IMG/VR virus record: IMGVR_UViG_3300042934_001336
Span: 1-25,453 of that record
DNA length: 25,453 nucleotides
Reading direction: 5' to 3' (one strand)
Source of the DNA: a virus
Made by a program: the position numbers and the translations under genes. The notes below the pieces were generated by a model. The model was not told the origin of the DNA. It was given only the letters and a program-made list of their open reading frames with translations, and ran no database searches. Position 1 is the first letter of the stretch, and every line of letters begins with the position of its first letter. Positions 1,473 through 23,038 of this stretch are shown one piece after another.

Positions 1473-1483
1473 CCAATATTTAT
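1473..1483 (+). promoter_or_regulatory. Late-gene leader motif CCAATATTTAT, copy 1
   Basis: This is the 11-base core, followed by TGG to make the 14-base inverted repeat CCAATA-TT-TATTGG (1473-1486). It lies 15 nt before the ATG of the tail chaperone gene and only 4 nt after the terL stop. It is one of eight identical copies in the window. The function is inferred. Confidence 0.75.
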
Positions 1484-1498
1484 TGGAAATTATTAGGA

Positions 1499-2035
1499 AT
1501 GACTAAAGAAGAATTAATAGAGAAACTCCCCTTAAAATGGTCAGATATTACACTAAAACAATATATCACATTCAGGAATTTGATTGAGAAGTTAGGGGGT
1601 GTAGAGGAGTTCGAAAAGGTGTATAGAAGCATTTTAGATATATATTTCTTCACATTTACAAATGTGAATATTGTCGATGTTGAGGGGTTCAAAGAGTTTG
1701 ATTACTTCAAGATAGCTGAAAGGTTCAACCAATTTGAAAACGACGAAAGCAATACAACAGCAGATATTGATGAAAGCCTAATCAAGGGGTTTGACCAAAT
1801 CATTTTTGAAGACCTTTTAAAATATATGAACCTGCAGGAGCAGAACAGTATAAGCAATTGGCCTGATATGATTAATATTCTATTGAAAACTCCTATTGAA
1901 GATATAGAGAACAAAATGAATATGGCAGACGCTAATAGGTTTTTTTTTGTGCTAGAGAATCAGTTGACCAACTATTTAAAAGCTTTGGAAATCTCTTTGA
2001 CGGAGAAGTTGAAGAAGAATCACAAAGTGCAATAG
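1499..2035 (+). CDS. Tail assembly chaperone (short, zero-frame product)
   Basis: This 178-residue protein begins with a segment (TLKQYITFRNLIEK) typical of Bacteroidota phage tail assembly chaperones. These proteins coat the tape measure protein while the tail tube is built. In the wider siphophage family (lambda G/GT) the gene makes two products through a -1 ribosomal frameshift near its 3' end. That arrangement is visible here: a T_TTA_AAA heptamer in the correct phase at 1975-1981, and a -1 frame open to 2214. The rest of the sequence is acidic and helical. The start ATG at 1499 follows a CCAATATTTAT copy. The tape measure gene is some 10 kb away rather than adjacent, which is unusual for this pair. 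Confidence 0.7.
   Translation: MTKEELIEKLPLKWSDITLKQYITFRNLIEKLGGVEEFEKVYRSILDIYFFTFTNVNIVDVEGFKEFDYFKIAERFNQFENDESNTTADIDESLIKGFDQIIFEDLLKYMNLQEQNSISNWPDMINILLKTPIEDIENKMNMADANRFFFVLENQLTNYLKALEISLTEKLKKNHKVQ
1975..1981 (+). other. Programmed -1 frameshift site (T_TTA_AAA)
   Basis: The codons read TAT TTA AAA GCT, so the heptamer T TTA AAA fits the X_XXY_YYZ rule in the gene's own frame. Slipping back one base re-reads A1981 and continues as AGC TTT GGA. That frame has no stop until 2212-2214. I did not identify a downstream stimulatory structure. Confidence 0.8.
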
Positions 2036-2214
2036 AAGCATCACAGCAGTATTTGAAAAAGGAGTTTTACAAGCGTTGGGGGTATTTTGAATTATTACAT
2101 AATGTTTGTGAATACTTATTTATAACGATGCTCGAAGGAATGAAAATGTTTGCCGTTGATGTATTTGTATATAGCTCCTTACTTAAAGACAAAGTAAATA
2201 TATTAAAGAAATAA
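1981..2214 (+). CDS. Tail assembly chaperone frameshift extension (T part of the GT-type fusion)
   Basis: This 77-codon extension is read in the -1 frame after the slippery site at 1975-1981. With the first 161 residues of the upstream frame it gives a predicted 238-residue fusion. The extension begins SFGNLFDGEVEEE, runs through an acidic linker into KKEFYKRWGYFELLHN, and ends KVNILKK. That hydrophobic and aromatic helical pattern looks like real protein. The stop at 2212-2214 is only 2 nt from the next start codon. The extension therefore explains an otherwise empty gap (2036-2216) in a densely packed region. In lambda, the T domain of GT binds tail tube protein while G coats the tape measure. 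A separate start for this segment is unlikely because it has no good start codon at its head. Confidence 0.75.
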   Translation, partial: SFGNLFDGEVEEESQSAIEASQQYLKKEFYKRWGYFELLHNVCEYLFITMLEGMKMFAVDVFVYSSLLKDKVNILKK

Positions 2215-2216
2215 TC

Positions 2217-2849
2217 ATGGCAAAAAACCTAAAGCAAGCATCAGAGAAAGTACAATTTAACAGCCTGATTGATAACCTAGTTGCAACCGTCGGTGAAGAT
2301 AGAGGAGCGTTTAGTTTTAACATGAATGTGTTAGAGGAGATGGTTGCTTCCTTTATCGAAAGAGTAAAAACTGAAATAAATAGTATCAATGATTTCTTAG
2401 TAACTGGTAGCATTGAGGAACTTTCAATCAAGGTCAACAATATGAATGAGGTTGAAATTTTAGGACTCCAGCATATCATCTATCAATCCCGTGGGGTTAA
2501 CGGAACAGAACAAAATAATGGTAGTGTACACAGTTACGGTCAGTATAAACCACCTGTTGCACCCATCTTGGAGTGGATAGAGAACCGTCAATTAATTTCT
2601 GCCAATAACAGTAAGTTCTTTAAAGACAGTGCATTCGATGATATGACCGATACGGAGAAGAAAACCCAATTAGCGTATGCAATACGAAGTCATATTTACA
2701 AGAAAGGATTCAAAGGCAAAGGCTATTGGGACAAGAATGTTGATTGGCTAAAGCAAGAACTAAATACACGTATCCAACAAAATCTAGGGGACCAGATAAA
2801 ATTCCGCATATTCAATAAATATGGCGACAACGTACATAAAAAAAATTAA
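2217..2849 (+). CDS. Probable neck / tail-completion protein (HK97 gp10-like)
   Basis: This 210-residue protein is helical in its N-terminal half. It then carries a stretch (SYGQYKPPVAPILEWIENRQ, about 102-121) and a later LAYAIRSHIYKKGFKGKGYW segment. The order 'KPP...I.EWI..R', 'AIA..I.KKG.KG' is what I associate with minor head or tail-completion proteins at the head-tail junction of Bacteroidota phages. The gene starts 2 nt after the frameshift product of the tail chaperone and is followed at once by a terminator, so it is the last gene of that unit. No catalytic motif is visible. A role in tail morphogenesis is likely from context; the exact family is less certain. Confidence 0.5.
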   Translation: MAKNLKQASEKVQFNSLIDNLVATVGEDRGAFSFNMNVLEEMVASFIERVKTEINSINDFLVTGSIEELSIKVNNMNEVEILGLQHIIYQSRGVNGTEQNNGSVHSYGQYKPPVAPILEWIENRQLISANNSKFFKDSAFDDMTDTEKKTQLAYAIRSHIYKKGFKGKGYWDKNVDWLKQELNTRIQQNLGDQIKFRIFNKYGDNVHKKN

Positions 2850-2870
2850 GCCCTTTATAGGGCTTTTTTA
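2848..2870 (+). terminator. Intrinsic terminator, probably bidirectional
   Basis: The stem AAGCCCT / AGGGCTT with loop TTAT is followed by a T run. It overlaps the stop codon of the 2217-2849 gene. On the other strand a long A run becomes a T run, so it can also end the convergent gene at 2868-3056. Confidence 0.85.
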
Positions 2871-3056
2871 GTTTTTTGCCAAACCTTCGATTTCTTCCAT
2901 AGTTTGTTGGACTGGAATACTATTTTCGTTCCCTACTAGATTTATAGACGATTTGGACTTTTCATTTCCTACAACAATTTTTACAATTCTAATGGTATCT
3001 GTATTTACTAAAAATGGAGTACCATCTGCAAAGTTCAATTTAATTAGTTTTCCCAT
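2868..3056 (-). CDS. Small protein resembling the FlbD-like family; function unknown
   Basis: This 62-residue protein begins MGKLIKLNFADG and continues with VNTDTIRIVKIV, a conserved-looking INLVGNEN and a final TMEEIEGLAK. This layout (I-K-L strand, 'G.P..VNTD.I', 'I.LVG', 'V..T.EEI') resembles small beta-rich proteins related to FlbD, which Bacteroidota and their phages carry without flagella. A further in-frame codon upstream (3110) would add a poor extension, so the ATG at 3056 is preferred. The gene lies on the opposite strand between two tail genes, ends in a shared terminator, and lacks the late motif. It is probably an accessory (moron-type) gene. No enzymatic residues are apparent. 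Confidence 0.55.
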   Translation of the reverse strand: MGKLIKLNFADGTPFLVNTDTIRIVKIVVGNEKSKSSINLVGNENSIPVQQTMEEIEGLAKN

Positions 3057-3106
3057 ATTTTTTTTATACAATATAATAAAAAAGAAATTGTGATGATTGT
3101 TTGCTA

Positions 3107-3117
3107 CCAATATTTAT
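3107..3117 (+). promoter_or_regulatory. Late-gene leader motif CCAATATTTAT, copy 2
   Basis: An exact 11-base copy, 8 nt before the ATG at 3126, with a purely A/G spacer (AGAAAAAA). It restarts the late genes after the reverse-strand insert. Confidence 0.75.
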
Positions 3118-3125
3118 AGAAAAAA

Positions 3126-4370
3126 ATGGCAATTACAATATCAGGACAACCACACAATATAAACCCCTCAGCAAATGCAAATAAATGGGAATTTACATCC
3201 GATAGTTCCCAAATGATTTATTGTATTGTTGAGGTGAAGGAGCCTATTACAGGTAAAATAATAGCGAAAAAGAAAGTGTTTCCAAAGCCGTTGTCAACTA
3301 CAATGTCCGTTGATTTATCGAGCGTTTTAACCAATGCCGTAGAGTCAAAATTGAATAACTCCAATGACGTAGTAGGTACTAGCAATTTATATGCTTATGA
3401 ACTGACGATTACAGAGTACTTGATAAATTCCTCAACAGGATTAGTTGCAGTCGGTGACAATTTACCAACAGGTATTAAATATGTCTTTGATTCCGAAATG
3501 GGATTGATTGATTATTTAAAATATCAGCCTAATAAATACAACATCAATACTACTTTAAACAAGGCGGTATTCTTATCGAACAAGGCAAACATTAATTATG
3601 TATCAGCAGAGCAGAAGGAGTTTTTAAAGATATTCGACACCTCTAAAATTGGAAAGAAAGTAAAGGTAACGAAGTATGTAAATAATGTTGGCACAGATAC
3701 CTTTTATGATATTCCAACAGTAGGGAATGTGATAAATATTAACGTATCGCCTTCAATTCTTTTTCCTAGTGGAACCGATAACATAGACAGATACAGAGTA
3801 GTGATTGTCGATAACGATAACATTGAACTCAGCGATTTTAAGGGGTATATTATCAAGAAGGATTGTAGTAAAAATGACTTCACAATTTTATATAAAAATC
3901 CTGTGAGCGGATGGGACACATTTACATTCAACAATAGAGTTGAGACCTTAATAATTAATAAGACCTACCTAAATAAATCGAGGGGGCAAACAGCGATTAA
4001 TAGTGTATTATTCAATGATAAGGAGTTAATTAATGTTGATTCGAAATACAGTTATAACGCATATAGTGACGTCCTTAATGACCATGATGCAAGTTTAATA
4101 AAGGAGTTACTAATAGCAAACAAAGTCTATATTGAGATTGAAGATTACTTTGTGGAAATAGCTATAGACGTGAAAACCTATAAGGTATTACAGCAACGTA
4201 ATAACGGATATAAACGGAGCCGATTAACAATAGATTTTAGTGTGGCATTTTCAATTGACTTGTTCAAGCAGATACTAATAGCGAATAGGGACGAGAACCC
4301 CCAAATCAACTACATTCTATCAAACTTTTGGTCACTTGTAGAGAACGAGAAAGGAATAGAGATAATATAA
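3126..4370 (+). CDS. Tail structural protein (tail-tip or fibre-attachment type)
   Basis: This 414-residue protein starts MAITISGQPHNINPSANANK, which is typical of tail-tip structural proteins of Bacteroidota siphophages. Such proteins open with 'ITIS.QP..I.P..NP' and then carry beta-rich domains. The rest alternates beta strands with polar loops, including a long segment around WDTFTFNNRVE (about 262-272). No enzyme motif is visible. It is the first gene of a unit that continues, 2 nt later, with the LamG/PhoD protein, so it probably helps attach or present that host-binding protein at the tail tip. The start follows a late motif. The exact position in the virion is inferred. Confidence 0.5.
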   Translation: MAITISGQPHNINPSANANKWEFTSDSSQMIYCIVEVKEPITGKIIAKKKVFPKPLSTTMSVDLSSVLTNAVESKLNNSNDVVGTSNLYAYELTITEYLINSSTGLVAVGDNLPTGIKYVFDSEMGLIDYLKYQPNKYNINTTLNKAVFLSNKANINYVSAEQKEFLKIFDTSKIGKKVKVTKYVNNVGTDTFYDIPTVGNVININVSPSILFPSGTDNIDRYRVVIVDNDNIELSDFKGYIIKKDCSKNDFTILYKNPVSGWDTFTFNNRVETLIINKTYLNKSRGQTAINSVLFNDKELINVDSKYSYNAYSDVLNDHDASLIKELLIANKVYIEIEDYFVEIAIDVKTYKVLQQRNNGYKRSRLTIDFSVAFSIDLFKQILIANRDENPQINYILSNFWSLVENEKGIEII

Positions 4371-4372
4371 AA

Positions 4373-7126
4373 ATGGCAATACAATATAATTTAATCGGAG
4401 CGATTACGCCAAACTCCGCAACAATAACAAGTAAGTACGATTACCCAGCACCAACACCTAACAGTACCGAGTTAAAGATTCTTAGAATAAGGTATCATTC
4501 AAGTTTAGGAATGCAGGTTTATATCAATGGGAAACTAGAAGCAACAGACAATGGCAAAACAGGGAATTTTGCATATATAGAAAACCTAATGATTGGAAGT
4601 GATGCCGATGAAGTTGCTTATTTCAAAGGCTATATATGTGAATTAGCCTTCATTAATGATTTTGGAACTCCAAATTCCGCAACGAATAGTAACATCATCG
4701 CACAAGAAAGATGGCTTGCTGATAAGTGGTTAACAACTGGAACCGTCCTAGATGATGGATATGTAGTTAAAGCAAGTGAAAGTGGTTCTTTTCCTATGAT
4801 TCCGATGCCTGACCGTATCCAATGGCTCCAAATGAATGAGACAACTATTGTAAATAATGGTGGTGGGAAATGTAGTAAATGGGATGATTTTGTAGGTTTT
4901 GGCGGTGTTTTAAAACACGGTATTCCAACAGCAGGTGCATTGCCCGCAACAATAGCTGTTAACAAATTCAAAGGTAAAAATACACTTTATTTTGATGGAA
5001 CAAATAATTATAAAGTTGCAGGATTAAAACAAAACGGAGACCCGGACTTTTTTACTTTTTTTATGGTTTTTGCCTTTGATAACACGACAGGTGACCAGAC
5101 TGTAATAGGGGCTATTAACGATGGGGGAACCGTTTACAATAATGCAATCAGGATTAAAAAGTACAGTGGTGAGCCTAATCTAGCTGTACGTATTAACACA
5201 GCTGGTTTCAATGAGGTACAAGTTCCTTTTAGCGATGTATATAGTATCAGTTATCCGCCTAATGTTGTATTGGGAAATATTCGTTTAAAGTACTCTAAAA
5301 ATTCCTCTTTTGCCGATGCGAATTACACTCCATTATTGCCACACAATTCAACCAATAATGGAGTTACTAAGCATACATTAACAGGACTTAGTAGCAATAC
5401 TCAATATTACGTCAAAATGGAAACGGACGGTGTGGAGCAACCCGAAGTATTGAAATTTAAGACATTCCCATTAGCAGGTACACCAACAAATTTTAAATTC
5501 GTGGCAGGCTCATGCAACTATACAGGCTCAAATGCCGAAACATTCGAAGAGATTCGAAACGAAGAGCCATTATTTTGGAGTCATTTAGGTGATTGGCATT
5601 ATGAGGATATAACCACGAATGATTCTCAATTGTTCCGTAATGCTTATAATACAACAGCGAAGCAGGCGAGGGTAAGGGATTTAAATCGAAATGTACCACT
5701 TATGTATATGTGGGACGACCATGATTTTGGGGATAACAATTCCGACAAAAATTCCCCTTCAAAAGTTGCTTCAACCAATTTTTACTTGGAAAATATCCCA
5801 CATTATCCGTTTCTGAACGATGCTAATTCAAACCCCTTAACCGATTCGCTCGGTCAAAGTTGGATAGTTGGAAGGGTATTATTTATAATGACGGATTTAA
5901 GAAGTCAAAGAGATAATTTCCTTATTGATGATTACGACCCGAATAAAAAAATGTTGGGTGACGTGCAAAAGGCGTGGTTTAAATCGACATTATTATCAGC
6001 AAAAAATAACGATGACGTTGCTTTGATTTGTTGGTTAAATCCTGGTTCATGGACAGGCGAAGACCTCAATGGTTATTCATGGGATTATGGTTCGAGTGGG
6101 GAACATTGGACAGCGTATAAAGCAGAACGAACAGAATTATGGCAATGGATGAACTCCAATAATATTACGAATATGTTTATTGTTAATGGTGACACACATC
6201 AACAGGCCATAGATGACGGACGGAACGCAATATTTGATACTATGCAACCAACGTTACTAGACTGGAAGACCTTTCCCGAAAACCGTTTAACTCCATGTAT
6301 CGAAGCTTCACCGTTTCATAAAGATGTGGATAGAGGTTCTGGACCATTTCAAATTAATGACATTGGCGATTCAGGTTCGGTACCTGTATTGTCTGAAAAA
6401 ACATATACTACTTTTGAAATTGAGGACAATGGTACAGAGTGGATTAAAGTTATTGTAAAGCAATATGCTTTGCCCGACGGAATAGTATATTATACCGAGA
6501 AAACATTGGTTAATAAGTTCGAATTTGTTAGACCATGTAAAGGAACTAAAGCACCAAGACCTGAAATTAACAACGAATCAGGATTTCAAAAGCTAGCAGG
6601 TAAAATAAAGACTAATTTAACCCTTAACAAGAAATCAGCAGCGATTACTTTTTTATCACCTGTAAGTTTCCAAAATAATTGGAAGGCACCAATAACAGGT
6701 AAAATTAACGGGACTAAAACTGACAGAGTTGTTAAAGTTTATCGACGGTCAGACGAAGATTATTTGGTAGGTGAATGTGCTGTTAATGCTACAACAGGGG
6801 AGTTTACTTTTAGTGGAAATAAAGGAATTTCAACGCTTATATTCAAGATTTACAATTCCTCAACCAACGCTCTTATAGAAGAAGTTATTAATGATGGCGT
6901 AAACGGAGAGACCTACAGCGATATTGAAGCGAAACTATATATTACTAGCGATATAGATTACTTCCAAAGAGCAACCACAATTGGGGTAACTAGCGGTTAT
7001 TCTTTTGAGGTAAATACAAATGATGAGGATAAAATTTACAAGGTCAAAATCATCAATAAAAATACCAATGAGGTTCTAGCAGAAACCCCTGTTCAAGGAT
7101 GGCTACCGAGGAGTTACACACTTTAA
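4373..7126 (+). CDS. Tail-associated LamG / PhoD-like phosphatase protein
   Basis: This 917-residue protein is probably a host-contact enzyme. Residues about 31-96 form a LamG-like module (VYINGKLEATDNG). A second LamG-like stretch follows at about 142-285 (TLYFDGTNNY). A fibronectin-like PhoD N-terminal domain (LTGLSSNTQYYVKM) spans about 295-365. A PhoD-family metallophosphatase spans about 372-720, with VAGSCNYTG, HLGDWHYED, YMWDDHDFGDNN and IVNGDTHQQ as successive metal-site motifs. PhoD enzymes cleave phosphodiesters or phosphomonoesters. About 200 beta-rich residues end in GWLPRSYTL. I took ATG 4373, 2 nt after the previous stop, over an in-frame codon at 4328 inside the previous gene. 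The stop is a lone TAA after which the same frame continues as convincing protein. The substrate is unknown; a phosphorylated surface glycan or lipid is a guess. Confidence 0.8.
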   Translation: MAIQYNLIGAITPNSATITSKYDYPAPTPNSTELKILRIRYHSSLGMQVYINGKLEATDNGKTGNFAYIENLMIGSDADEVAYFKGYICELAFINDFGTPNSATNSNIIAQERWLADKWLTTGTVLDDGYVVKASESGSFPMIPMPDRIQWLQMNETTIVNNGGGKCSKWDDFVGFGGVLKHGIPTAGALPATIAVNKFKGKNTLYFDGTNNYKVAGLKQNGDPDFFTFFMVFAFDNTTGDQTVIGAINDGGTVYNNAIRIKKYSGEPNLAVRINTAGFNEVQVPFSDVYSISYPPNVVLGNIRLKYSKNSSFADANYTPLLPHNSTNNGVTKHTLTGLSSNTQYYVKMETDGVEQPEVLKFKTFPLAGTPTNFKFVAGSCNYTGSNAETFEEIRNEEPLFWSHLGDWHYEDITTNDSQLFRNAYNTTAKQARVRDLNRNVPLMYMWDDHDFGDNNSDKNSPSKVASTNFYLENIPHYPFLNDANSNPLTDSLGQSWIVGRVLFIMTDLRSQRDNFLIDDYDPNKKMLGDVQKAWFKSTLLSAKNNDDVALICWLNPGSWTGEDLNGYSWDYGSSGEHWTAYKAERTELWQWMNSNNITNMFIVNGDTHQQAIDDGRNAIFDTMQPTLLDWKTFPENRLTPCIEASPFHKDVDRGSGPFQINDIGDSGSVPVLSEKTYTTFEIEDNGTEWIKVIVKQYALPDGIVYYTEKTLVNKFEFVRPCKGTKAPRPEINNESGFQKLAGKIKTNLTLNKKSAAITFLSPVSFQNNWKAPITGKINGTKTDRVVKVYRRSDEDYLVGECAVNATTGEFTFSGNKGISTLIFKIYNSSTNALIEEVINDGVNGETYSDIEAKLYITSDIDYFQRATTIGVTSGYSFEVNTNDEDKIYKVKIINKNTNEVLAETPVQGWLPRSYTL
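7124..7126 (+). other. In-frame TAA interrupting a longer tail-fibre frame
   Basis: The frame of the 4373 gene (phase 2) runs without another stop from 4373 to 8146. Codons after TAA read K-N-D-P-A-Y-I-T-P-F-A-S-K-S-Y-L-Y-D-A-G, which is clearly protein-like and joins the downstream glycosidase-like ORF. There is no in-frame ATG between 7127 and 7202. An A-run error cannot explain the stop, because the TAA begins before the A run has any effect on phase and both flanks share one frame. Confidence 0.75.
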
Positions 7127-7201: not shown

Positions 7202-8146
7202 TTGACAGGTGTTGGAAACAGTGAAGGGGCAAAAAGGACGGCAAAGGGTATTGTGAAAAGTCAGTTGGTGAATGGAGCATTTCCGTTTAGCACAAATCAC
7301 ATTAACCCGATTGGTGCAGATGCTTATTTAAGGTCGGGAGCTATATGTTGGGTTGCTTATTCTTTAGGTTATTATTTGGAAATGTACCCTAATTCTACCA
7401 TTGAAAAAGACGTAAAACAATGCTTAATCAAAGCTTTGGAATATTTAAAAATACTTCAAGACAATACCAAAGGCGGACTAATTAAAGGTGGCTCAGGAAG
7501 GTATACGACAAGCGGAGGGATTGAAACATTTGACCCTAATTATATTATTCCGTGGGTATCAACAGAACATAATATTGATGCTTATTTTGCTTTCAAGCAA
7601 GCAGGAAATGTATTAGCAAATGCAGGTTATACAAGCATTGCAACAGCAATTGGAAATTCAATAATAGCACGATTATACAATTCAACAGAAAACCGAATGT
7701 ATCAAGGTATCAATGCCGATGGAACACCCGACACAGCCGATGCACTCGATATAAATTCATGGGGCGCTATCGCTATGGTTGCTCTAGGCCAAAGAGAATA
7801 TGCGGTTAAATTATTGAAGCGAGCCGAGCGGTATTATTCAACAGTTGACGAAGAAACAGGTGCGTTAGGATACAAGCCGTATTCAGCCGAATTAGGTTAT
7901 CCCAATGCAAAGGACACCGTTTGGTTTGAAGGGAGCTTTGGCGTTGCTTTGGCCTACTACAAAATTGGTAATGTTGAAAAGTATAATCAACTTTTGGACG
8001 GACTTTATAAGTTCAAGGAATCAGACGGAGCATTTAGATATGCAACATTGCGTGATTCAACTTATGAAATCACTAATAATAAAGCTATTGCAAGTACTGC
8101 ATGGTTTGTGTTAGCAAATAACCTCGCAAATAATGTTTGGAAATAA
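7202..8146 (+). CDS. Glycosidase-like (alpha/alpha)-barrel protein, possibly the C-terminal part of the upstream protein
   Basis: The sequence has repeated helix pairs typical of six-hairpin glycosidase-like barrels: WVSTEHNIDAYFAF, LDINSWGAIAMVALG, TVWFEGSFGVALAYYKIG and a final IASTAWFVLANN. Proteins of this type bind or cleave sugar polymers. With the phosphatase before it, this points to a tail-borne depolymerase. Initiation is doubtful. The listed start is a TTG, and protein-like sequence extends in frame upstream to 7127, immediately after the TAA that ends the 4373 gene. The next in-frame ATG is about 60 codons in. The simplest reading is one 1257-codon gene broken by a stop, so this may be made by readthrough or reinitiation, or may be a degraded half. 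A terminator follows at 8221. Confidence 0.65.
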   Translation: MTGVGNSEGAKRTAKGIVKSQLVNGAFPFSTNHINPIGADAYLRSGAICWVAYSLGYYLEMYPNSTIEKDVKQCLIKALEYLKILQDNTKGGLIKGGSGRYTTSGGIETFDPNYIIPWVSTEHNIDAYFAFKQAGNVLANAGYTSIATAIGNSIIARLYNSTENRMYQGINADGTPDTADALDINSWGAIAMVALGQREYAVKLLKRAERYYSTVDEETGALGYKPYSAELGYPNAKDTVWFEGSFGVALAYYKIGNVEKYNQLLDGLYKFKESDGAFRYATLRDSTYEITNNKAIASTAWFVLANNLANNVWK

Positions 8147-9819: not shown

Positions 9820-9830
9820 CCAATATTTAT
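9820..9830 (+). promoter_or_regulatory. Late-gene leader motif CCAATATTTAT, copy 3
   Basis: An exact copy, 8 nt before the ATG at 9839 and 17 nt after the stop of the accessory gene. Confidence 0.75.
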
Positions 9831-12149: not shown

Positions 12150-12176
12150 GGCTCCCCTGATCGGGGAGCCTTTTTT
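12150..12176 (+). terminator. Strong intrinsic terminator
   Basis: GGCTCCCC pairs with GGGGAGCC (8 bp, mostly G-C) with a short loop, then TTTTTT. It lies 23 nt before the late motif of the tape measure gene. Confidence 0.92.
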
Positions 12177-12198: not shown

Positions 12199-12209
12199 CC
12201 AATATTTAT
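12199..12209 (+). promoter_or_regulatory. Late-gene leader motif CCAATATTTAT, copy 4
   Basis: An exact copy, 10 nt before the ATG at 12220. The upstream TTGAG is shared with the copy at 17860. Confidence 0.75.
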
Positions 12210-12219: not shown

Positions 12220-14949
12220 ATGGCTATTAAAGGCAGTAACAATAAAGAAGAAATATTACTTGGTGTCCAAATTGATGTTGAATCAGCAGAGAAAAAAATT
12301 CAAGAACTTGAAAAGAAGCTTGATGCGTTGGAAGAGGTTAAATTAAAAGTCAGTGGCGATGCACTTGCACAAGTCAATATGGAGATTGACCAAACTACAA
12401 AAGCAATCAAAGACCTAAATGAGATAATTATTCAACCCTCTTCCAAAGTTGACGAAATTCAAAATATTGGTAAGGTCGTTGAAGATTTAAATGAAAGCAT
12501 TGACGATGTTAACAAGAACAAAATCAAACCCCAAACGGATAATAAAGAGTTAAAAAATACTATCCTCTCATTGGACGAAATGGATGACTTATTATCAAAG
12601 CTCCGTGACGAGCAGAGAAGTTCAAAAGACCCTTTGCGATTACAGCAATTAGCTAATGAAGCCAAAGATTTAACACTCCAAATTGACGCTTTAGAGAATG
12701 GATTTGTTGACACTAATCAGACTATAGGATTGCTTGAAGACCGTTTATATGCTATGGCTCAGGCAGGGCAAACGGGTACCGAGGAGTTTAACAATATTCT
12801 GAACAAAGTTGCTGAATTGAAGCAACATGTCATCAATGTTGATATGGCCGTTGATTCGCTATCAGCCGATAAATGGGGCAAATTCGTTGAAGCAGGTGAA
12901 AACCTTACTGGGGTGCTTGGTGGTGTCACAGGAGCATTGCAATTAATGGGAATCGAGAGCAAGGGAGCGGAAGAGAATATTGCAAAGCTTATGCAATTGC
13001 AATCTATAATGCAGGGGTTGCAGTCTTTGAACCAATTCCGCAAACAATGGACAACTTTAATAACTTCCTTCAAACAAGCAAAAGAAGCAACCGATACAAT
13101 AAATAATATAGCTGATGCAACAGAGACGGCAAGCGATGCAACGGGTACATTAACATCTGCAACACAGGGGGCAACAACAGCAACAACAGCCTTTGGTACC
13201 GCCTTTAAAGCCGTGGGGATAGGGATTTTAATTGCTGGGTTGACTTACCTAATCGCCAATTTTGACAAGCTTAAAAAAGTTGTTTTTAATCTTGTCCCAG
13301 GGCTTAAAGATGTAGCGGAATTTGTGGGCAAAATCATTGAGAAAGTGACGGATTTTATCGGTATTACCTCGGAAGCTGAAAGGCAGTTAGAGCGATTGAA
13401 AAAGTTGAATGAAGGTATTACAACAGGAATTGCAAGTCAAATCGAGATGCTCCAAGCGCAAGGAAATAAAGAAAAAGAAATCTATGAATTAAGTTTAAGA
13501 CAAAACTCCTTAAAACGTCAATCTTTAATTGAAACGGCTAAAGTCAATAAGAAGCTGAATGACGAAGAGCAAAAGCAACTCATTGAACTCAATACGGAGC
13601 GCAATGTATTAATACTTTCAGAACGAAAGCGTATAAGTGACCTTGCTAAAGAGCGAGAAGATAAGGCAAAGCAAGAATATGATACATTACTTAATCAACT
13701 TAAAGGCTATCTTAAAGAAGCTGAAAAAATCACTTATGCTTCCAACCACAATTCAAGACAGACAGATTTAAAAAATCTATCTGACAAATACAAAGAACAG
13801 ATTGCAGTAGCGAGAAAGCTAAATCAAGATATTAGTAAGCTCGAACAATCCGAAAGAATAGAACGTAATATTATCAACAAGAAATATGATGATGAATATT
13901 TTAACTATATAAAGGGCAATAGTCGTCAATTCCTTGATGATTTCAGCCGTGAGTACTTAGAGACCATCGAAGGTTATAATAGGCAAAAAGAAAATGCGAC
14001 AACAGAACAAAAAGCTGATTTAGATGTAAGGCTGAATAATCAATTATTGTACTTATCCCAATTGAAGCAATTAGCCATTTCCCAAAAGGAAGCGGAAAAG
14101 GATTTAAATTCCTCTTCAACCACAAATGAGATAAACGAAGATGATAGCTTTAAAATCCAAAAACAAAAGTTAGATGCTCAGTTACAAGCTACAAAAGATT
14201 ACGAAGATACTTTACTGCTTATAACAACGGAGTCTAAAAATCTTGAAAATTCCGAAATCCAAAGGTTATACGAAGAAGGTCAAGCGAGGTTAAAAGAGTT
14301 AATGTTAGACCCTGCAATTAATGCGAATGAAATAACTAATGTGCAGGCTGAATTGAATGCAAAATTGGGTGCTATTGACGCAAATAATAAGGAAATTGAA
14401 GATGCTACAAAAAAGCACAATGACAACATTTTGAAAGTTGAAAAGGCAAACGTAAAAGCAAAGAAAAAAATCGACGAAGAAGAGAAAAAAGCAAAACTTG
14501 AAAAACTAGGAGCAATCGGAGATGCAACGGAACAAGCAAGTCAATTACTAGGGGAAAGCACAGCATTAGGTAAAACTTTAGCAATTTCAAGTTCTTTGAT
14601 TAGTTCTTATTCAGCAGGCGCAAAAGTATTAGATACCGTTCCATTTCCTGCAAATATTCCTGCAATGGCATCGGTCATATTATCAGGCTTGAATACTGTT
14701 AAAAAAATAATATCAGTCAAAGTGCCTAATGATAATGGCTCAGGTGGAGCAGGAGCAGACGCACCATCATTCAGCGCACCGGTGATTAATTCAACAGTTC
14801 TAAAAACGGCTGAAAACGGTACAGATAAACTGAGCGATGTAATCACCCAAAGCAACGAAAATCAAGTTGTCAAAGCTTATATTACTAATTCTGATATTGA
14901 GACAAACGAACAAAAAAACCAATTTATAAAAAGAACATCGAGCTATTGA
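12220..14949 (+). CDS. Tail tape measure protein
   Basis: This 909-residue protein is mostly helical and rich in coiled-coil heptads (AEKKIQELEKKLDALEEVKL at the start; charged Lys/Glu helices around 390-780). A hydrophobic segment GIGILIAGLTYLIANF lies near residues 330-348, and a second apolar stretch near 787-834 (AISSSLISSYSAGAKVLDTV). Length, coiled coils and central apolar helices are the usual signature of tape measure proteins. These set siphophage tail length and may enter the host membrane during DNA injection. By the common rule of about 0.15 nm per residue, the tail would be roughly 135 nm. The start follows a late motif and the gene is preceded by a terminator, so it forms its own unit. 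Its chaperone gene lies at 1499. Confidence 0.9.
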   Translation: MAIKGSNNKEEILLGVQIDVESAEKKIQELEKKLDALEEVKLKVSGDALAQVNMEIDQTTKAIKDLNEIIIQPSSKVDEIQNIGKVVEDLNESIDDVNKNKIKPQTDNKELKNTILSLDEMDDLLSKLRDEQRSSKDPLRLQQLANEAKDLTLQIDALENGFVDTNQTIGLLEDRLYAMAQAGQTGTEEFNNILNKVAELKQHVINVDMAVDSLSADKWGKFVEAGENLTGVLGGVTGALQLMGIESKGAEENIAKLMQLQSIMQGLQSLNQFRKQWTTLITSFKQAKEATDTINNIADATETASDATGTLTSATQGATTATTAFGTAFKAVGIGILIAGLTYLIANFDKLKKVVFNLVPGLKDVAEFVGKIIEKVTDFIGITSEAERQLERLKKLNEGITTGIASQIEMLQAQGNKEKEIYELSLRQNSLKRQSLIETAKVNKKLNDEEQKQLIELNTERNVLILSERKRISDLAKEREDKAKQEYDTLLNQLKGYLKEAEKITYASNHNSRQTDLKNLSDKYKEQIAVARKLNQDISKLEQSERIERNIINKKYDDEYFNYIKGNSRQFLDDFSREYLETIEGYNRQKENATTEQKADLDVRLNNQLLYLSQLKQLAISQKEAEKDLNSSSTTNEINEDDSFKIQKQKLDAQLQATKDYEDTLLLITTESKNLENSEIQRLYEEGQARLKELMLDPAINANEITNVQAELNAKLGAIDANNKEIEDATKKHNDNILKVEKANVKAKKKIDEEEKKAKLEKLGAIGDATEQASQLLGESTALGKTLAISSSLISSYSAGAKVLDTVPFPANIPAMASVILSGLNTVKKIISVKVPNDNGSGGAGADAPSFSAPVINSTVLKTAENGTDKLSDVITQSNENQVVKAYITNSDIETNEQKNQFIKRTSSY

Positions 14950-14954
14950 TTTTT

Positions 14955-14981
14955 AGCCCATCATAACCGAGGGGTTTTTTA
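14955..14981 (+). terminator. Weak terminator-like sequence
   Basis: A short CCC / GGG pairing followed by TTTTTT comes right after the tape measure stop. The stem is poor, so this is tentative, although its place matches the stronger terminators of the other units. Confidence 0.3.
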
Positions 14982-14989: not shown

Positions 14990-15000
14990 CCAATATTTAT
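14990..15000 (+). promoter_or_regulatory. Late-gene leader motif CCAATATTTAT, copy 5
   Basis: An exact copy, 11 nt before the ATG at 15012, with an A-rich spacer. Confidence 0.75.
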
Positions 15001-15011: not shown

Positions 15012-15614
15012 ATGGATAGAAAACTTTATGAGCTAAAAGTAAATCCCGATATAGGTATGGACGTAAACGTGATTTCAATTGTTGATTCCCCTGCTGTTGA
15101 GAGTTCATTTTTAGCATTCTCAAAGCAAGAAAAGAAAGAAACCTTTGCCGTTGCTAATGAGGATAGGATGGAATTAATAGGAGTGGCAATGATACCTGAT
15201 AAAATAATACCACGTTTTGATGGAGCCACCAAAGAAGAATATGATGTGTTTTTCTCAAAGGACACCATTCGCACAATTGCACAAAACTATTTTTATTCGG
15301 GCTATCAGCATTCTATCAACCTTCAACATTCGGACACTTTTGTTAATGCACATGTGTGGCAAAGTTATATTGTAGATTCATTTTTGGGGTTGAATGCTCC
15401 GAACGGAATTGAAGCAATTGACGGCACTTGGATAGTCGGTGTACAACTTGATAAGGCCGATACAGGTTCCCAAAAACTTTGGAAATTCATCAAAGACGGA
15501 ACATACACAGGATTCTCAGTTGAGGGCTATTTTATCAACCAATTAACACAAAATTTTAACTCCCAAATCACACTTGAACAAGAAATAGATAAGGCTTTAA
15601 AGTCTCTAAAATAG
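15012..15614 (+). CDS. Prohead protease, XkdF-like (peptidase S78-type)
   Basis: This 200-residue protein begins MDRKLYELKVNPDIGMDVNV, followed by IVDSPAVESSFLAF. The pattern 'YEL..NP....V..IS.VD.PAVE..FLAF' marks the XkdF-like proteases of Bacteroidota phages. The candidate catalytic His106 lies in LQHSD and Ser169 in GFSVEGYF, matching the usual 'H' and 'G.S.EGYF' sites. The enzyme trims scaffold and capsid proteins during head maturation. The next two genes are the scaffold and the major capsid protein, as expected. The start follows a late motif. Confidence 0.85.
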   Translation: MDRKLYELKVNPDIGMDVNVISIVDSPAVESSFLAFSKQEKKETFAVANEDRMELIGVAMIPDKIIPRFDGATKEEYDVFFSKDTIRTIAQNYFYSGYQHSINLQHSDTFVNAHVWQSYIVDSFLGLNAPNGIEAIDGTWIVGVQLDKADTGSQKLWKFIKDGTYTGFSVEGYFINQLTQNFNSQITLEQEIDKALKSLK

Positions 15615-15627: not shown

Positions 15628-15638
15628 CCAATATTTAT
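15628..15638 (+). promoter_or_regulatory. Late-gene leader motif CCAATATTTAT, copy 6
   Basis: An exact copy, followed by TGG to complete the 14-base inverted repeat (15628-15641). It lies 17 nt before the ATG at 15656, the longest spacer of the eight. Confidence 0.75.
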
Positions 15639-15655
15639 TGGAAAGAAAGACAAAA

Positions 15656-16264
15656 ATGAATATAAAATCATTTAGAGCATTAGAGCAAAAATTTAACGAT
15701 TTAGTTTCAAAATTCATTTTCAAAAGTTCAACGGTGGGTGAAACAGTATACGAATATACGTCCAATTCAGTCGGTGCAGAAGTATATGTTAGCACATCAA
15801 CAGGTAGTGAATTAGCCCCGAACGGTACAGTTGAATTGCCGAATGGCGATAGTTTTATCGTTAATGATGGTAAAATATCTGAAGTGTTAACAGTAGCTAA
15901 TGAAGAGACTGAAGTAGAATTAAAAGCTGAAGACGAAGAAGAAAAAGTTGATGCTGAAGAATCAAAAGAAGAAGAAGCAATTGATTTGATTATTGACGGT
16001 GTTGAGGAAGATAAGGAAAAAGAAGACTTAGCCGAAGAACCAACAGATGATAATAACGAAGTCGATGTTTTGAAAGCTGAAATCGAAGCTTTAAAAGCTA
16101 CAATCAAAGAATTAAAAGGGGAATTTTCTAAAGAAATCGATACCAAAATCGAGGAATTTAAAACCATCCTAAAAAATACGCCTGCATCTTTTTCAAAGCA
16201 AAATACGGTTGCAGAAGACGTAAAAGAAGATAAATGGGCAAGTCTTGCAAAAAAGTTAGCCTAA
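15656..16264 (+). CDS. Head scaffold-like acidic protein
   Basis: This protein of about 202 residues has a globular N-terminal part with LPNGDSFIVNDGKISEV, a strongly acidic middle (runs of Glu and Asp, about 85-135) and a predicted coiled coil (EIEALKATIKELKGEFSKEI). It ends WASLAKKLA. An acidic, coiled-coil protein between the protease and the major capsid gene is the usual layout for the scaffold, which guides capsid assembly and is then removed by the protease. A TTG at 15638 gives six extra residues, but it lies inside the CCAATATTTATTGG motif, so I prefer ATG 15656. The gene ends 25 nt before the capsid gene. Confidence 0.75.
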   Translation: MNIKSFRALEQKFNDLVSKFIFKSSTVGETVYEYTSNSVGAEVYVSTSTGSELAPNGTVELPNGDSFIVNDGKISEVLTVANEETEVELKAEDEEEKVDAEESKEEEAIDLIIDGVEEDKEKEDLAEEPTDDNNEVDVLKAEIEALKATIKELKGEFSKEIDTKIEEFKTILKNTPASFSKQNTVAEDVKEDKWASLAKKLA

Positions 16265-17786: not shown

Positions 17787-17828
17787 TCCCAAATTAGATT
17801 TTAAAATTTTCATTACTTAATTATTCGG

Positions 17829-17853
17829 AGGGGCTTTTTCTAGCCCCTTTTTT
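17829..17853 (+). terminator. Intrinsic terminator
   Basis: GGGGCT pairs with AGCCCC around a TTTTCT loop, extended by an A-T pair, then TTTTTT. It lies just before the late motif at 17860. Confidence 0.85.
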
Positions 17854-17859: not shown

Positions 17860-17870
17860 CCAATATTTAT
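17860..17870 (+). promoter_or_regulatory. Late-gene leader motif CCAATATTTAT, copy 7
   Basis: An exact copy, 13 nt before the ATG at 17884 and directly after a terminator. Confidence 0.75.
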
Positions 17871-17883: not shown

Positions 17884-18210
17884 ATGATTATAGATAAAAA
17901 ACTCCTTACAAATTCCTTGTTCTTCAATGTCGCACCATATACAATAGTGGGGGAGGTCACATTGAAGTTAATAAAGGAATCATCTAATAAGGAATTATCA
18001 TTTACCATTATCCCGACCAAAATAACGGCTCGATTTATTGAGGTTAAAGAGGAATTTGGAGCGATAGAAGAAGGAAAATATAGCTATCAATTAGAGTATA
18101 ACAGCTCAATAATTGATAGCGGATTCATCCGAGTCATCGGAGAGAACCAAGAGGGCGCAATTGAGCGACCAACAGAAGTAAGAAAAGTAATAGATGGACG
18201 AAAAAAATAA
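17884..18210 (+). CDS. Small beta-rich head-region protein, function unknown
   Basis: This 108-residue protein begins MIIDKKLLTNSLFFNVAPYT, then carries alternating strands (GEVTLKLIKESSNK, KYSYQLEYNSSIIDSGFIRVI), and ends basic (KVIDGRKK). It overlaps the portal gene by 17 bp and belongs to the same unit, so it is probably a minor head or head-assembly protein. Small proteins of this sort sit before portal genes in related phages, but I have no name for it. No catalytic residues, signal peptide or membrane helix are visible. Confidence 0.6.
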   Translation: MIIDKKLLTNSLFFNVAPYTIVGEVTLKLIKESSNKELSFTIIPTKITARFIEVKEEFGAIEEGKYSYQLEYNSSIIDSGFIRVIGENQEGAIERPTEVRKVIDGRKK

Positions 18211-20062
18211 CGATTATAACATAAAAATAGAAAACTTTGCGAGGTTCATTACTCCTCAACCAATAGAACCAAAACAAAACAATAACGATAGACACGTCAA
18301 CTGGGGAGAAGACAATCTGTATCCTAATTTTTTAATTGATATTGCGGATAAATCATCGTTACACGGTTCAATTTTGAATAGTAAATCAAACTATATATAT
18401 GGTGATGGCCTAATCGATAAAAAATCAGGGGAGTTTTTGAACGAAATCCAAGTTAATGAAGATGATTCCCTATCGGAATTGATTAAAAAATGTATTAATG
18501 ACTTGGTTTACTTTAATGCTTTTGCTGTTGAAGTTACATTTAACCAATTGGGCGAGCCTTTTAATTACTATCATGTTCCGCTACATCATGTACGTTTGAA
18601 CAATTCAAAAACAACCTTTTTTGTTAACAAAGATTGGAAAAATACACCAAGGACTGTATTGTCTTATCCAAAGTATTTTCCAAAGTCGAACGATTCAACA
18701 GAACCTAAAATATTTTATTTTAACTCATACAATGTAAGTGTGAATAACACATATCCGACAGCCGATTATAAATGTATCGAATCAGCGGTTACAGACATGT
18801 TAGTCACAACGCTTTTCAAAAATAACGTTGCAAATGGATTTTCATTAACTAAAGTTATCAAGACTTTTAACGGTCAGGTATCAGAAGACCAACAACGCAT
18901 TATAACTAAAAAATTCCGTGATATATTTTCGGGTGCAGATGGTGAAAATTTGCTTGTGGAATTCAATTCGCCACAAGGGCAAGCTATGGAAATAGACACC
19001 ATTGAAGCGGACGATTATGCAAGTAAACTAATTGAAGTAATCAAGAAAACTGAACGTAATATCTTATCAGCACACCAAGCAACATCATCAATTTTATTTG
19101 GTGTTGAGAACGAAGGTAATACTTTAGGGGGTAATGGTGCAGAACTTGAAATTGCATATCAATTATTTAAAAACAATTACGTGAAAGACAAGCGTATTGA
19201 GATTGTTAACGCATTTAATAAATTATTCCAGGCCGATGACCGATTGCCAATCATTGACCTTAAAGATAAAGAAAGACTTTTCAAACCTGAATTGGATTCA
19301 GCCACTAAAGAAAAGATAATGACCTTAAATGAACTTAGAAGTGAAGCAGGCTTAGAGCCGTTAGCTGATGGTGATAAGTTGTTGACAATTAATCAATCTT
19401 TAATGTTAGCTACTAACAAATCATTTTCCGATGATAAAAAAAAAGATGACGATGAAATAGAATCTTATTCAGCTACAATTGAGGACTTCGAGAAAGTAAA
19501 GCATTTAGGCACGAACAAAGAGGAATTTGTATTAATTGGTAAAGCTAAATTTTCGGGGTGTGGTCATTATGATTTTGCATCAAATTACAATTCAATTGAA
19601 GAGTATTTGTTAGACAACAAGATTGAGGGTATGGCACTTGATGAAATTGCTATCAAAATTGGTAAAGAACTGAACCAAAATATCACAAAGCAAGAGGTAC
19701 AGAATGCGATAGAATTGCTTAAAAATGCAGGGTTGATTAATGCAAAAACCAATACAGCAAATAACATAATCCATACTGCACCGTCAAGCATTAACAATGC
19801 TAATAAAATTGAGGTATGGTATGATTATCAAAAAAGAGATGATGCTGACGGTAATACAATTATCCCAACAACAAGACACTTTTGTGAAGCTGTAATTAAT
19901 TCTAACAAGTATTTCAGTGCATCGGACATTCAAAAATTTTCACTTGCATTCGGATATAATGTGATGGAACATTGCGGAGGATATTGGAAAAATAAAAAGA
20001 CAGGCGTTGTAAATAAACATTGTCGCCATACGTGGGTACCTGTGAAAACAATCAAAATATAA
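18194..20062 (+). CDS. Portal protein with C-terminal extension (probable minor-head region)
   Basis: The portal forms the ring through which DNA enters the head. Residues 1 to about 430 look like a Bacteroidota phage portal: VNWGEDNLYPNFLIDIAD near the start, ILNSKSNYIYGDG, a long hydrophilic stem and HQATSSILFGVENEG. After a Lys/Asp-rich linker, a further 190 residues follow. They contain a winged-helix-like stretch (LDEIAIKIGKELNQNITKQE, about 481-500) and a final region with HFCEAVI, AFGYNVMEHCGGYW and HCRHTW. The 'C-R-H-x-W' ending recalls the C-terminal part of minor head (Mu F-like) proteins. At 622 residues the protein is longer than a typical portal, consistent with a fusion. It overlaps the upstream gene by 17 bp, and the next gene starts 2 nt later. 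Confidence 0.7.
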   Translation: MDEKNNDYNIKIENFARFITPQPIEPKQNNNDRHVNWGEDNLYPNFLIDIADKSSLHGSILNSKSNYIYGDGLIDKKSGEFLNEIQVNEDDSLSELIKKCINDLVYFNAFAVEVTFNQLGEPFNYYHVPLHHVRLNNSKTTFFVNKDWKNTPRTVLSYPKYFPKSNDSTEPKIFYFNSYNVSVNNTYPTADYKCIESAVTDMLVTTLFKNNVANGFSLTKVIKTFNGQVSEDQQRIITKKFRDIFSGADGENLLVEFNSPQGQAMEIDTIEADDYASKLIEVIKKTERNILSAHQATSSILFGVENEGNTLGGNGAELEIAYQLFKNNYVKDKRIEIVNAFNKLFQADDRLPIIDLKDKERLFKPELDSATKEKIMTLNELRSEAGLEPLADGDKLLTINQSLMLATNKSFSDDKKKDDDEIESYSATIEDFEKVKHLGTNKEEFVLIGKAKFSGCGHYDFASNYNSIEEYLLDNKIEGMALDEIAIKIGKELNQNITKQEVQNAIELLKNAGLINAKTNTANNIIHTAPSSINNANKIEVWYDYQKRDDADGNTIIPTTRHFCEAVINSNKYFSASDIQKFSLAFGYNVMEHCGGYWKNKKTGVVNKHCRHTWVPVKTIKI

Positions 20063-20064
20063 CA

Positions 20065-21320: not shown

Positions 21321-21325
21321 GATGT

Positions 21326-21673
21326 ATGAGTACATATTATAGAGAAAAGCTAGTAAAACTACATGACGTTCTTTTTTTGGATGTTAGAAATGCTAGAGAT
21401 TCATTTGTTGAAAATGAAAGCCATTGGGAAACAGCATATTTTGCTTCAAAAACTGTGGGCGATGATGATACGAAAAATAGATGGAATAAGGTATGGGGAG
21501 AGTTAAATAGTAAACAAAATCCTTATAGTTTTGGGACAGATTTTAGTTTCACCATCTCCAAAAAGCAAAGTAAATCGCTCCAAAAGTACTTATTATTCGT
21601 TCTGGAAGAATACGGCCGATTAAGAACGGGATTTCAAGCTAGTAAATCAATAAAAATACAAAGCCCCTCATAA
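21326..21673 (+). CDS. Hypothetical protein, accessory
   Basis: This 115-residue protein begins MSTYYREKLVKLHDVLFLDV and continues with HWETAYFASKTVGDDDTKNR and NPYSFGTDFSFTISKKQSKS, then a long basic/helical end (KYLLFVLEEYGRLRTGFQAS). An upstream in-frame codon at 21278 would overlap the previous gene in another frame, so ATG 21326 is preferred; it follows the previous stop by 5 nt. I do not recognise the family. There is no signal peptide or membrane helix. It ends in a strong terminator and is probably co-transcribed with the small gene before it. Confidence 0.55.
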   Translation: MSTYYREKLVKLHDVLFLDVRNARDSFVENESHWETAYFASKTVGDDDTKNRWNKVWGELNSKQNPYSFGTDFSFTISKKQSKSLQKYLLFVLEEYGRLRTGFQASKSIKIQSPS

Positions 21674-21686
21674 CTAAGGGGCTTTT
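21661..21686 (+). terminator. Terminator between convergent genes
   Basis: AAGCCCCT pairs with AGGGGCTT around an eight-base loop, then TTTT. It overlaps the stop codon of the 21326 gene and is followed by the stop of the reverse-strand gene at 21690. In the reverse direction the following T run is short. Confidence 0.85.
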
Positions 21687-21689
21687 ATG

Positions 21690-22205
21690 CTACTGGTAGA
21701 TGCAGGAATTGATATGTTCTTTTAATTTGTTTAATGCTTGGCGATGGCTGTCGCTTCGAAGGCCGTCATACCAATAATTACCGTCTTTTTGTGTTATCGT
21801 GAAATGCACCAATTTGACTTTGTTTGCGCTCAATTCTTGGATAATATAAGCTATTAAGCCCACTATTGCCCCAATTGCAATACCGTAGAAAATTCCGAAA
21901 AAACTCCCCCCAATAGAACCAACAATTGCACCACTGATACCCCCATCGTCATTAGCTAATACATTGTATACGAATATAATTAGACAAGCCACGACAGTAG
22001 TACCGATTGCAACTTTGGAGGAACTGTAATTGTAAGTATACTGTTTGCCTTCTTGCTCGGTCAAATTCGCTCCACGTACCTCATTGATACCTATGAAGGC
22101 TTCTTGGGAGCCATTTTTATATAGCAGTCTTTTGTCTGTTAACTTAAATCTTTCGTGATTGATTTGGATAGTTAAAACCTCTTTTTCGTTGCCTAATAGT
22201 TCCAT
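21690..22205 (-). CDS. Membrane protein with N-terminal PH-like domain, accessory
   Basis: This 171-residue protein begins MELLGNEKEVLTIQINHERF, followed by LTDKRLLYKNGSQEAFIGIN, a short strand-rich start reminiscent of bacterial PH-like domains. A membrane helix follows (KVAIGTTVVACLIIFVYNVL), then a glycine-rich hydrophobic stretch (SGAIVGSIGGSFFGIFYG and IGAIVGLIAYII), then a polar C-terminus (GLRSDSHRQALNKLKEHIN). I preferred the ATG at 22205, just after the stop of the neighbouring lipoprotein gene, over an in-frame GTG at 22256 inside that gene. It is downstream of, and probably in one unit with, the lipoprotein gene. A cell-envelope accessory role for the lysogen is a guess. The function is unknown. 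Confidence 0.6.
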   Translation of the reverse strand: MELLGNEKEVLTIQINHERFKLTDKRLLYKNGSQEAFIGINEVRGANLTEQEGKQYTYNYSSSKVAIGTTVVACLIIFVYNVLANDDGGISGAIVGSIGGSFFGIFYGIAIGAIVGLIAYIIQELSANKVKLVHFTITQKDGNYWYDGLRSDSHRQALNKLKEHINSCIYQ

Positions 22206-22206
22206 A

Positions 22207-22500
22207 TTATTTGTTACTACAGTTTTCAATGACCTTATCAAATTGGTCTCTAGCACTTTTAACTTGTTCGTCAGTCCAATTTTTATTTACTCCGACTCGT
22301 TCAAGAGTTGCCATGTTGGATTGTTGGAGTGTTTGGCAACGAGCTAGTTGTTCTAATCTTCCTGTTTGATTGGCTATCTGGTGCATTTTGCGATAACAAT
22401 CACATACTTCCTTTGCTAAATCTTGTGGATTATTTTTTGAGCAAGATGCCAATAAGCATACGACTCCTATGAGCGTGTAGGTTAATATTTTTCTCTTCAT
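22207..22500 (-). CDS. Small lipoprotein, accessory (moron-type)
   Basis: This 97-residue protein has a basic start (MKRKI), a hydrophobic core (LTYTLIGVVCLLA) and a lipobox LLASC, with the predicted modified cysteine at residue 20. It is therefore probably exported and lipid-anchored. The mature part is hydrophilic and helical with four further cysteines (two in CDC, one in ARC, one near the end, ENC), which might form disulfides. Prophage-borne lipoproteins often change the surface of the lysogen, for example by blocking superinfection, but nothing here proves that. It ends 1 nt before the membrane-protein gene that follows. It is read from a promoter-like TTTG-N19-TACATTTG overlapped by a palindrome. 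Confidence 0.65.
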   Translation of the reverse strand: MKRKILTYTLIGVVCLLASCSKNNPQDLAKEVCDCYRKMHQIANQTGRLEQLARCQTLQQSNMATLERVGVNKNWTDEQVKSARDQFDKVIENCSNK

Positions 22501-22520
22501 AATGACTTAAATTTTAATTT

Positions 22521-22551
22521 CAAATGTACGACATGTCGTATATAATTCAAA
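22521..22551 (-). promoter_or_regulatory. Bacteroidota-type promoter for the lipoprotein unit
   Basis: On the reverse strand, TTTG (22548-22551) and TACATTTG (22521-22528) are 19 nt apart, matching the TTTG-N19-21-TAnnTTTG pattern. The -7 box is about 20 nt before the lipoprotein start codon at 22500. Confidence 0.65.
22527..22540. promoter_or_regulatory. Palindromic operator TACGACATGTCGTA
   Basis: This is a perfect 14-base palindrome between the divergent lipoprotein and XRE-regulator genes. It overlaps two bases of the reverse -7 box and fills the spacer, where a bound repressor would block RNA polymerase. It is a natural target for the neighbouring regulator; this is inferred. Confidence 0.6.
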
Positions 22552-22576
22552 ATATATTATCCCAATTTTTGTTCTA

Positions 22577-22819
22577 ATGGCAATGAGGAACCCACGGAAC
22601 GAAGAATTAATAACCGCATTTGGACAAAATGTGAGGAGATTTCGTTTGGAAAAAGGGTTGACTATGAATGAATTAGCTTTAGTGTGTGATGTTGAATATG
22701 GAGCGATAAGCACCATTGAGAGAGGAAAAGTAAATTGTTCAATCAGTACAGCATTTGCCATTGCCAAAGCTTTAGATACCCCAATTGAAAAGCTTTTAAC
22801 CGTTGAAACAATCAAATAA
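22577..22819 (+). CDS. XRE-family (Cro/CI-type) helix-turn-helix regulator
   Basis: This 80-residue protein is almost entirely one HTH domain: VRRFRLEKGLTMNELALVCD (about 19-38), then AISTIERGKVNCS and STAFAIAKALDTPIEKLL. These are the features of XRE-family DNA-binding proteins, normally dimers that bind palindromes. The divergent intergenic region holds the perfect palindrome TACGACATGTCGTA at 22527-22540, a likely operator. The ATG at 22577 is used; a second ATG two codons later is possible. The gene is read away from the lipoprotein gene, so it may control that unit and itself. No late motif precedes it. It is not necessarily the lysis-lysogeny switch, since no partner repressor or integrase is in view. 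Confidence 0.85.
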   Translation: MAMRNPRNEELITAFGQNVRRFRLEKGLTMNELALVCDVEYGAISTIERGKVNCSISTAFAIAKALDTPIEKLLTVETIK

Positions 22820-23027
22820 TTAGCCTTATTACCAATCAATTTTTACCCTTTCTATATAAAGATAAATAAAGCCTTTTAAGGGGTTTTGTATCGATATGGA
22901 TTAATGATATTAAATGTTGTAAATAATGCCTTATATGGCTTCTTATGTAGTCCGTTTTAGACGGCAATCTCCCTTTTATAAGTGAAACTAATTTATTTTA
23001 CTTTTCTCCGTGCTTTTGGCCGTCAGT
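22820..23027. other. Intergenic region before the lysis genes
   Basis: This stretch between the XRE regulator gene and the endolysin is AT-rich with no convincing ORF. It holds a small hairpin (CCGT at 22952 with ACGG at 22961) and a six-base inverted pair GACGGC (22960) / GCCGTC (23019). No exact TAnnTTTG box or clear terminator was seen; a poor CCTT..AAGG structure lies near 22871. Confidence 0.4.
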
Positions 23028-23038
23028 CCAATATTTAT
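23028..23038 (+). promoter_or_regulatory. Late-gene leader motif CCAATATTTAT, copy 8
   Basis: An exact copy, completed by TGG to the 14-base inverted repeat (23028-23041). It lies 8 nt before the ATG at 23047 and marks the lysis unit. Confidence 0.75.

Follow-up and report, generated by a model that had tools for sequence, protein, structure and literature searches.

Late genes of the window and a repeated box

The window analyzed here is a 25,453-nucleotide (nt) stretch of viral DNA (IMG/VR record IMGVR_UViG_3300042934_001336, positions 1 to 25,453) that carries packaging, virion, and lysis genes and an 11-mer box, CCAATATTTAT, for which a role as a late promoter is proposed. Profile matches place TerL at 260-1468, the tape measure at 12220-14949, the head protease at 15012-15614, and the portal at 18194-20062; the open reading frame (ORF) at 23050-23568 matches the phrog endolysin family, and the next one (23571-24023) weakly matches a holin. 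Four of the names that a sequence-only reading of this DNA had given to genes downstream of the box (tape measure, protease, portal, and endolysin) thus agree with profile matches and a fifth (holin) does so weakly; the ORFs it had labeled tail chaperone, tail tip, and baseplate had no match in the profile searches, and its scaffold was not confirmed. An Rfam search of the window gave no match.

Exact matching recovered the eight copies of CCAATATTTAT that had been read from the sequence, each at the position given there and in + orientation; the opposite strand of the window contains no exact copy. The reading had put the number expected by chance well below one; the mean over 100 shuffles was 0.09, and no shuffle reached eight. 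The last base of the box lies 8-17 nt from an ATG, the same spacing as first described. A ninth copy precedes terS, slightly upstream of the window (contig C61:25857-25878). The copies in the window, all exact matches, are as follows:

1473..1483, + strand: predicted late-promoter box CCAATATTTAT ahead of ORF 1499-2035; also at the orthologous site in close relatives
3107..3117, + strand: predicted late-promoter box ahead of ORF 3126-4370 (MAITI protein)
9820..9830, + strand: predicted late-promoter box ahead of ORF 9839-12094; site kept in relatives
12199..12209, + strand: predicted late-promoter box ahead of the tape-measure ORF 12220-14949; terminator immediately 5'
14990..15000, + strand: predicted late-promoter box ahead of the head-protease ORF 15012-15614; weak terminator immediately 5'
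15628..15638, + strand: predicted late-promoter box ahead of ORF 15656-16264 (scaffold position); site kept in relatives
17860..17870, + strand: predicted late-promoter box ahead of ORF 17884-18210 and the portal ORF 18194-20062; terminator immediately 5'
23028..23038, + strand: predicted late-promoter box ahead of the endolysin ORF 23050-23568 and the holin-like ORF 23571-24023

Conservation and lineage switching of the box

Among the relatives of the window phage is G027, a prophage of Sphingobacterium sp. xlx-96. The metagenome-assembled genome (MAG) that carries contig C61 encodes a sporulation-type sigma set of the Bacillota (SigF/SigG/SigH-like); phage relatives that reside in Sphingobacterium are at odds with such a set, so the contig probably stems from a Bacteroidota phage and was mis-binned.

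The comparison drew on twelve IMG/VR loci with portals 61-91% identical. Throughout the close group (about ten relatives), no base of the 11-mer varies among the copies recovered, which stand at the same gene starts, and the sequence upstream is often wholly different. The group contributes 93 copies, some of its loci overlapping in part; every copy is on the coding strand, an ATG follows within 2-19 nt, and the composite logo of the group is CCAATATTTAT-Y-N-N-AAAA. Two more distant phages (portal 67% and 61%) bear TTAATATTTAT, CTAATATTTAT, or ATAATATTTAT at these gene starts. The site orthologous to the box at 1473 reads CTAATATTTAT or ATAATATTTAT in distant prophages, and the orthologous starts of the gene at 3126-4370 bear TTAATATTTAT, ACTATTTAT, CCTATTACC, TTCAATACTT, or ATCCATTACC.

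Sixteen prophages emerged when a portal profile was run against 400 genomes from the bacterial family to which the Sphingobacterium host belongs. A blind count of words upstream of ORFs showed that most of them own a repeated word, and a one-mismatch statistic compared with shuffles split the prophages cleanly into those with and those without one. Twelve Sphingobacteriaceae prophages each have their own variant repeated upstream of late genes in excess of shuffles; lineage-specific variants at corresponding gene starts include TTAATATTTAT, CATAATATATAG, CATACTATTTAT, CCTATTACCT, and ATCCATTACC. The repeated words, by prophage, are:

G1024: CCAATATTTAT
G027: TTAATATTTAT/CTAATATTTAT
G1025: ATAATATTTAT
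G1042: CTAATATTTAT/CGAATATTTAT
G871: CATAATATATAG
G820 and G731: ACTATTTAT
G886: CATACTATTTAT
G958: CCTATTACC
G1003: CCTATT[AT]CC
G951: ATCCATTACC
G1037: TCAATACTT

In each prophage, the word marks many of the same starts, and the genes concerned commonly include the protease, tape measure, MILID head gene, and endolysin. A motif search over related Bacteroidota phages had been suggested as a check on the sequence-only reading; the outcome is that the box, or the variant of a lineage, recurs at many of the same late gene starts and in excess of shuffles. By the one-mismatch statistic, G805, G910, G980, and G744 have no repeated word; G744 is interrupted by a contig end, and the portal of G980 is broken. 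G805 (L107-L108) and G910 (L109-L110) share homologs of the head protease, major head protein, and portal; in both, no repeated late box was found, and no sigma-like gene of the type described below. Because the sequence of the box shifts in concert within each genome among phages of a single host family, its reader is most likely encoded by the phage.

The window copies at 1473, 15628, and 23028 extend, as had been noted, to the perfect inverted repeat CCAATATTTATTGG, which would suit an operator, CCAATA-TT-TATTGG, bound by a dimeric regulator. However, the TGG that completes the dyad follows the box in just 25 of the 93 sites of the clade, the outer pairs occur at one of 26 AATATTTAT sites in other lineages, and the copies are all co-oriented, unlike symmetric operators. 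The dyad is incidental on these counts, and we reject the operator as a most improbable explanation.

Promoter-like anatomy and predicted transcription units

Aligned on the box, 100 sites from 13 phages hold information only in the box itself and in an A-run at +14 to +19 that peaks 16 nt past the box start. No second, upstream box was detected across these sites, where the upstream sequence is only mildly T/A-rich. The position of the A-run follows the box more closely than the ATG: counted from the box, A occurs in 86% of sites, against at most 67% when counted from the ATG. The distance from box to start codon varies over lineages from 3 to about 40 nt. If RNA starts at the A-run peak, the A-T common to all lineages would fall at about -11/-10.

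Intrinsic terminators are concentrated just ahead of the boxes: one lies at most 60 nt upstream in 31 of the 100 sites, compared with 18 of 234 motif-free control ORFs (P=1.6e-7; P=4.7e-6 with only one of the three closest clade members kept). Features of the window that belong to this layout are:

12150..12176, + strand: intrinsic terminator, GGCTCCCCTGATCGGGGAGCC followed by T6, shortly 5' of the box at 12199; -18.0 kcal/mol
14955..14980, + strand: weak terminator-like hairpin with T6, 5' of the box at 14990; -6.2 kcal/mol; relatives have a stronger one at the orthologous site
15642..15644, + strand: example of an A-run and predicted transcription start, beginning 4 nt past the box
17828..17853, + strand: intrinsic terminator with T6, shortly 5' of the box at 17860; -12.9 kcal/mol

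These terminators bear on the idea that late transcripts are split by mRNA cleavage at the box. Its intergenic placement would agree with such a site, and short 5' ends would result from it; however, terminators end no more than about 25 nt upstream of nearly one-third of the boxes, so that transcription should stop before reaching them, and the site of a host nuclease is not expected to change sequence with each phage lineage. We consider cleavage scarcely plausible.

Bacteroidota ribosomes largely disregard Shine-Dalgarno sequences, and a translation-initiation element that aids them would be in keeping with the A-rich spacers and the 6-19 nt that separate most copies from the ATG. The measured range of start distances and the closer attachment of the A-run to the box speak against this role, as do the variation of the box among phages sharing one host family and the presence within units of genes without a box, such as ORF 16290. 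At terS, slightly upstream of the window, the start codon lies 38-41 nt downstream of the box, with a conserved hairpin between the two (ATGCC...GGCAT, and variants such as GCCCTA...TAGGGC; L009 and its orthologs L026-L033, L082, and L084). Because the true start is this far away and behind a hairpin, the box at terS is not a ribosome-binding feature, and an initiation element is very improbable overall. The hairpin itself could serve in leader control of terS.

The sequence-only reading had named first a phage-specific late promoter, with the motif as its core and a very short leader, and had offered translation initiation and mRNA processing as alternatives. Boxes that often adjoin terminators, a variable distance to the start codon, and a concerted change of sequence genome by genome strongly support the former and disfavor the latter two.

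A candidate sigma factor and a proposed late-promoter code

Upstream of terS, and outside the window, an ORF of about 228 amino acids (aa) (L009:8662-9348, minus strand of the locus) belongs to phrog_31903 (E 2e-53), its sole significant match and a family without assigned function. Iterated profiles detected this gene in each of the 14 tabulated phages that have the motif and did not detect it in the four that lack it; against the other early or regulatory genes compared (p130, KilAC, rep, and HTH), it alone tracks the presence of the motif. The distribution of terS is the same, and the two genes may therefore move together as a module.

Several comparisons relate this protein to extracytoplasmic function (ECF) sigma factors. 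A search of 395 genomes of the class with its profile gave only three matches outside its own family; each is a classical ECF sigma factor, and the alignments cover region 2. Profile-profile alignment (hhalign) with 17 unselected Sphingobacterium ECF sigmas gave E 2e-5 and a probability of 77% (reversed controls, 0.1-0.2%), and with a Clostridial set E 7e-4; these two are fair tests, and an E of 5e-8 from another set is biased, since that set contains matches of the query itself. An AlphaFold model of a relative of the window phage's protein, built from 15 diverse sequences (predicted local distance difference test score, 77), matched almost exclusively sigma factors in the PDB, with phage sigma factors among the top viral matches. 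Structural realignment placed region 2 of SigR best (Z 7.3, 2.4 A over 76 residues), a Z below the level that is safe for helical bundles. C-terminal helices are predicted; the profile match is limited to region 2, and the promoters have no -35 box. The distance between sigma-like proteins correlates with that between motifs (r 0.73; 0.43 when controlling for the portal), and that of the portal, given the sigma-like protein, does not (0.02). The phrog_31903 protein is probably an ECF-like sigma factor, as judged from these profile and model comparisons.

Other observations weigh against this assignment or the pairing with the box. In hhalign, the subfamily of the window phage gives no match to ECF sigmas when used alone, and the link runs via relatives. 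The scores of Pfam Sigma70_r2 (E 0.12) and NCBIfam TIGR02985 (E 0.013) are not near the curated cut-offs; no Foldseek match of the model had E < 0.001, none being individually significant; and PDB sequence searches with alignments of the sigma-like protein gave nothing relevant. The correlation of protein and motif is not independent of descent, the lineages being related. Finally, terS was not found in any of the four motif-less phages and terL in only one of them; with one of these phages cut by a contig end and another having a broken portal, the absence of the sigma-like gene may partly reflect loss of a module or incomplete recovery.

A phrog_31903 match in G392 proved to be an unrelated adenine-deaminase-like ORF and was discarded. 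The GenBank phage records searched contained no credible relative of the sigma-like protein.

Sigma promoters of related layout are known. T4 late promoters read by gp55, a divergent phage sigma, consist of a single -10-like box, TATAAATA; the layout is shared, but the sequence is unlike the box here, which reads AATATTTAT on the coding strand. Primary-sigma promoters of Bacteroidota have TTTG at -33 and TAnnTTTG at -7, and they too place an AT-rich box near the start; here there is no -33 partner, and the invariant bases differ. The closest precedent is phiEco32 gp36, a phage sigma without region 4 whose middle and late promoters are a single 9-bp tAATGTAtA with no -35 box and a start 6-8 bp downstream (PMC8948821, PMC4331800). 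Both systems have a single box in several copies ahead of late genes, with a start site that is only predicted here. The likeness drawn here is one of apparent promoter layout; phiEco32 is a lytic Escherichia coli phage, whereas the relatives here bear integrases or are integrated in Sphingobacteriaceae, the sigma-like protein belongs to an unannotated family, and at least seven versions of the box occur. The promoters of phage 7-11, a distant phiEco32 relative, are similarly placed but differ from those of phiEco32 (PMC8948821, PMC4331800); the sigma of 7-11, gp47, has region 4 and uses bipartite promoters (GTAAtg-16-aCTA), unlike the single box here (PMC8948821). No described element with the sequence of CCAATATTTAT was found, as the sequence-only reading had supposed, and promoters of the phiEco32 sigma type are the same in kind.

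The promoter anatomy would stand whatever the reader, and host RNA polymerase with its own sigma might instead be directed to the box by an unrecognized phage activator or coactivator. One such candidate is a 130-aa protein encoded between the sigma-like gene and terS (L009:8266-8658, minus strand), a possible coactivator or an unrelated protein. It is conserved in eight of 14 motif phages but was not found in the other six, and the misfit of the box to the host element argues against the host's own sigma; we regard this explanation as unlikely. A single-subunit phage RNA polymerase (about 800 aa) was rejected: the early ORFs are all too small, the largest in the fetched stretch having 296 aa, and the large late ORFs scanned gave no polymerase match.

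We conclude with good confidence that CCAATATTTAT is the single box of a phage-specific late promoter, probably read by host RNA polymerase with the phrog_31903 ECF-like sigma. Early genes would use host promoters, and the sigma-like protein, made early, would join the host core polymerase and recognize the box in the manner of a -10 element, with no contact at -35. Transcripts would start within the A-run, whose beginning lies 4 nt past the box, giving leaders of a few nucleotides, or of about 35 nt with the hairpin at terS. About nine boxes per genome would each restart transcription of a virion, packaging, or lysis unit after the preceding unit, and the sigma-like protein and all its boxes would change jointly from lineage to lineage.

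Further genes of possible regulatory or structural interest lie nearby. An AntA/KilAC antirepressor (L009:9482-10318, minus strand) is encoded in the early region and, among the phages tested, occurs only in the clade of the window phage. Immediately 5' of the lysis unit is a CI/Cro-like helix-turn-helix (HTH) protein (22577-22819), close to minus-strand ORFs at 21690-22500. The tail region includes a large phosphodiesterase/hydrolase-like protein (4328-7126) followed by a tail-fiber-like ORF (7202-8146).

Late-gene switching in Bacteroidota phages is poorly known (a limited search of the open-access literature found no described case), and the box offers a testable late-promoter code. It seems likely that phrog_31903, an unannotated phage protein family that thereby gains a proposed function, represents phage sigma factors of a new family that diverges fast among Sphingobacteriaceae phages, with a single-box code for each lineage that has been rewritten in concert at up to ten sites per genome. 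The resulting natural sigma-promoter pairs, about a dozen, would provide material on how promoter specificity changes when all sites in a genome must follow; a series of at least seven pairs may be mutually orthogonal, and such pairs might become orthogonal expression parts for Bacteroidota.

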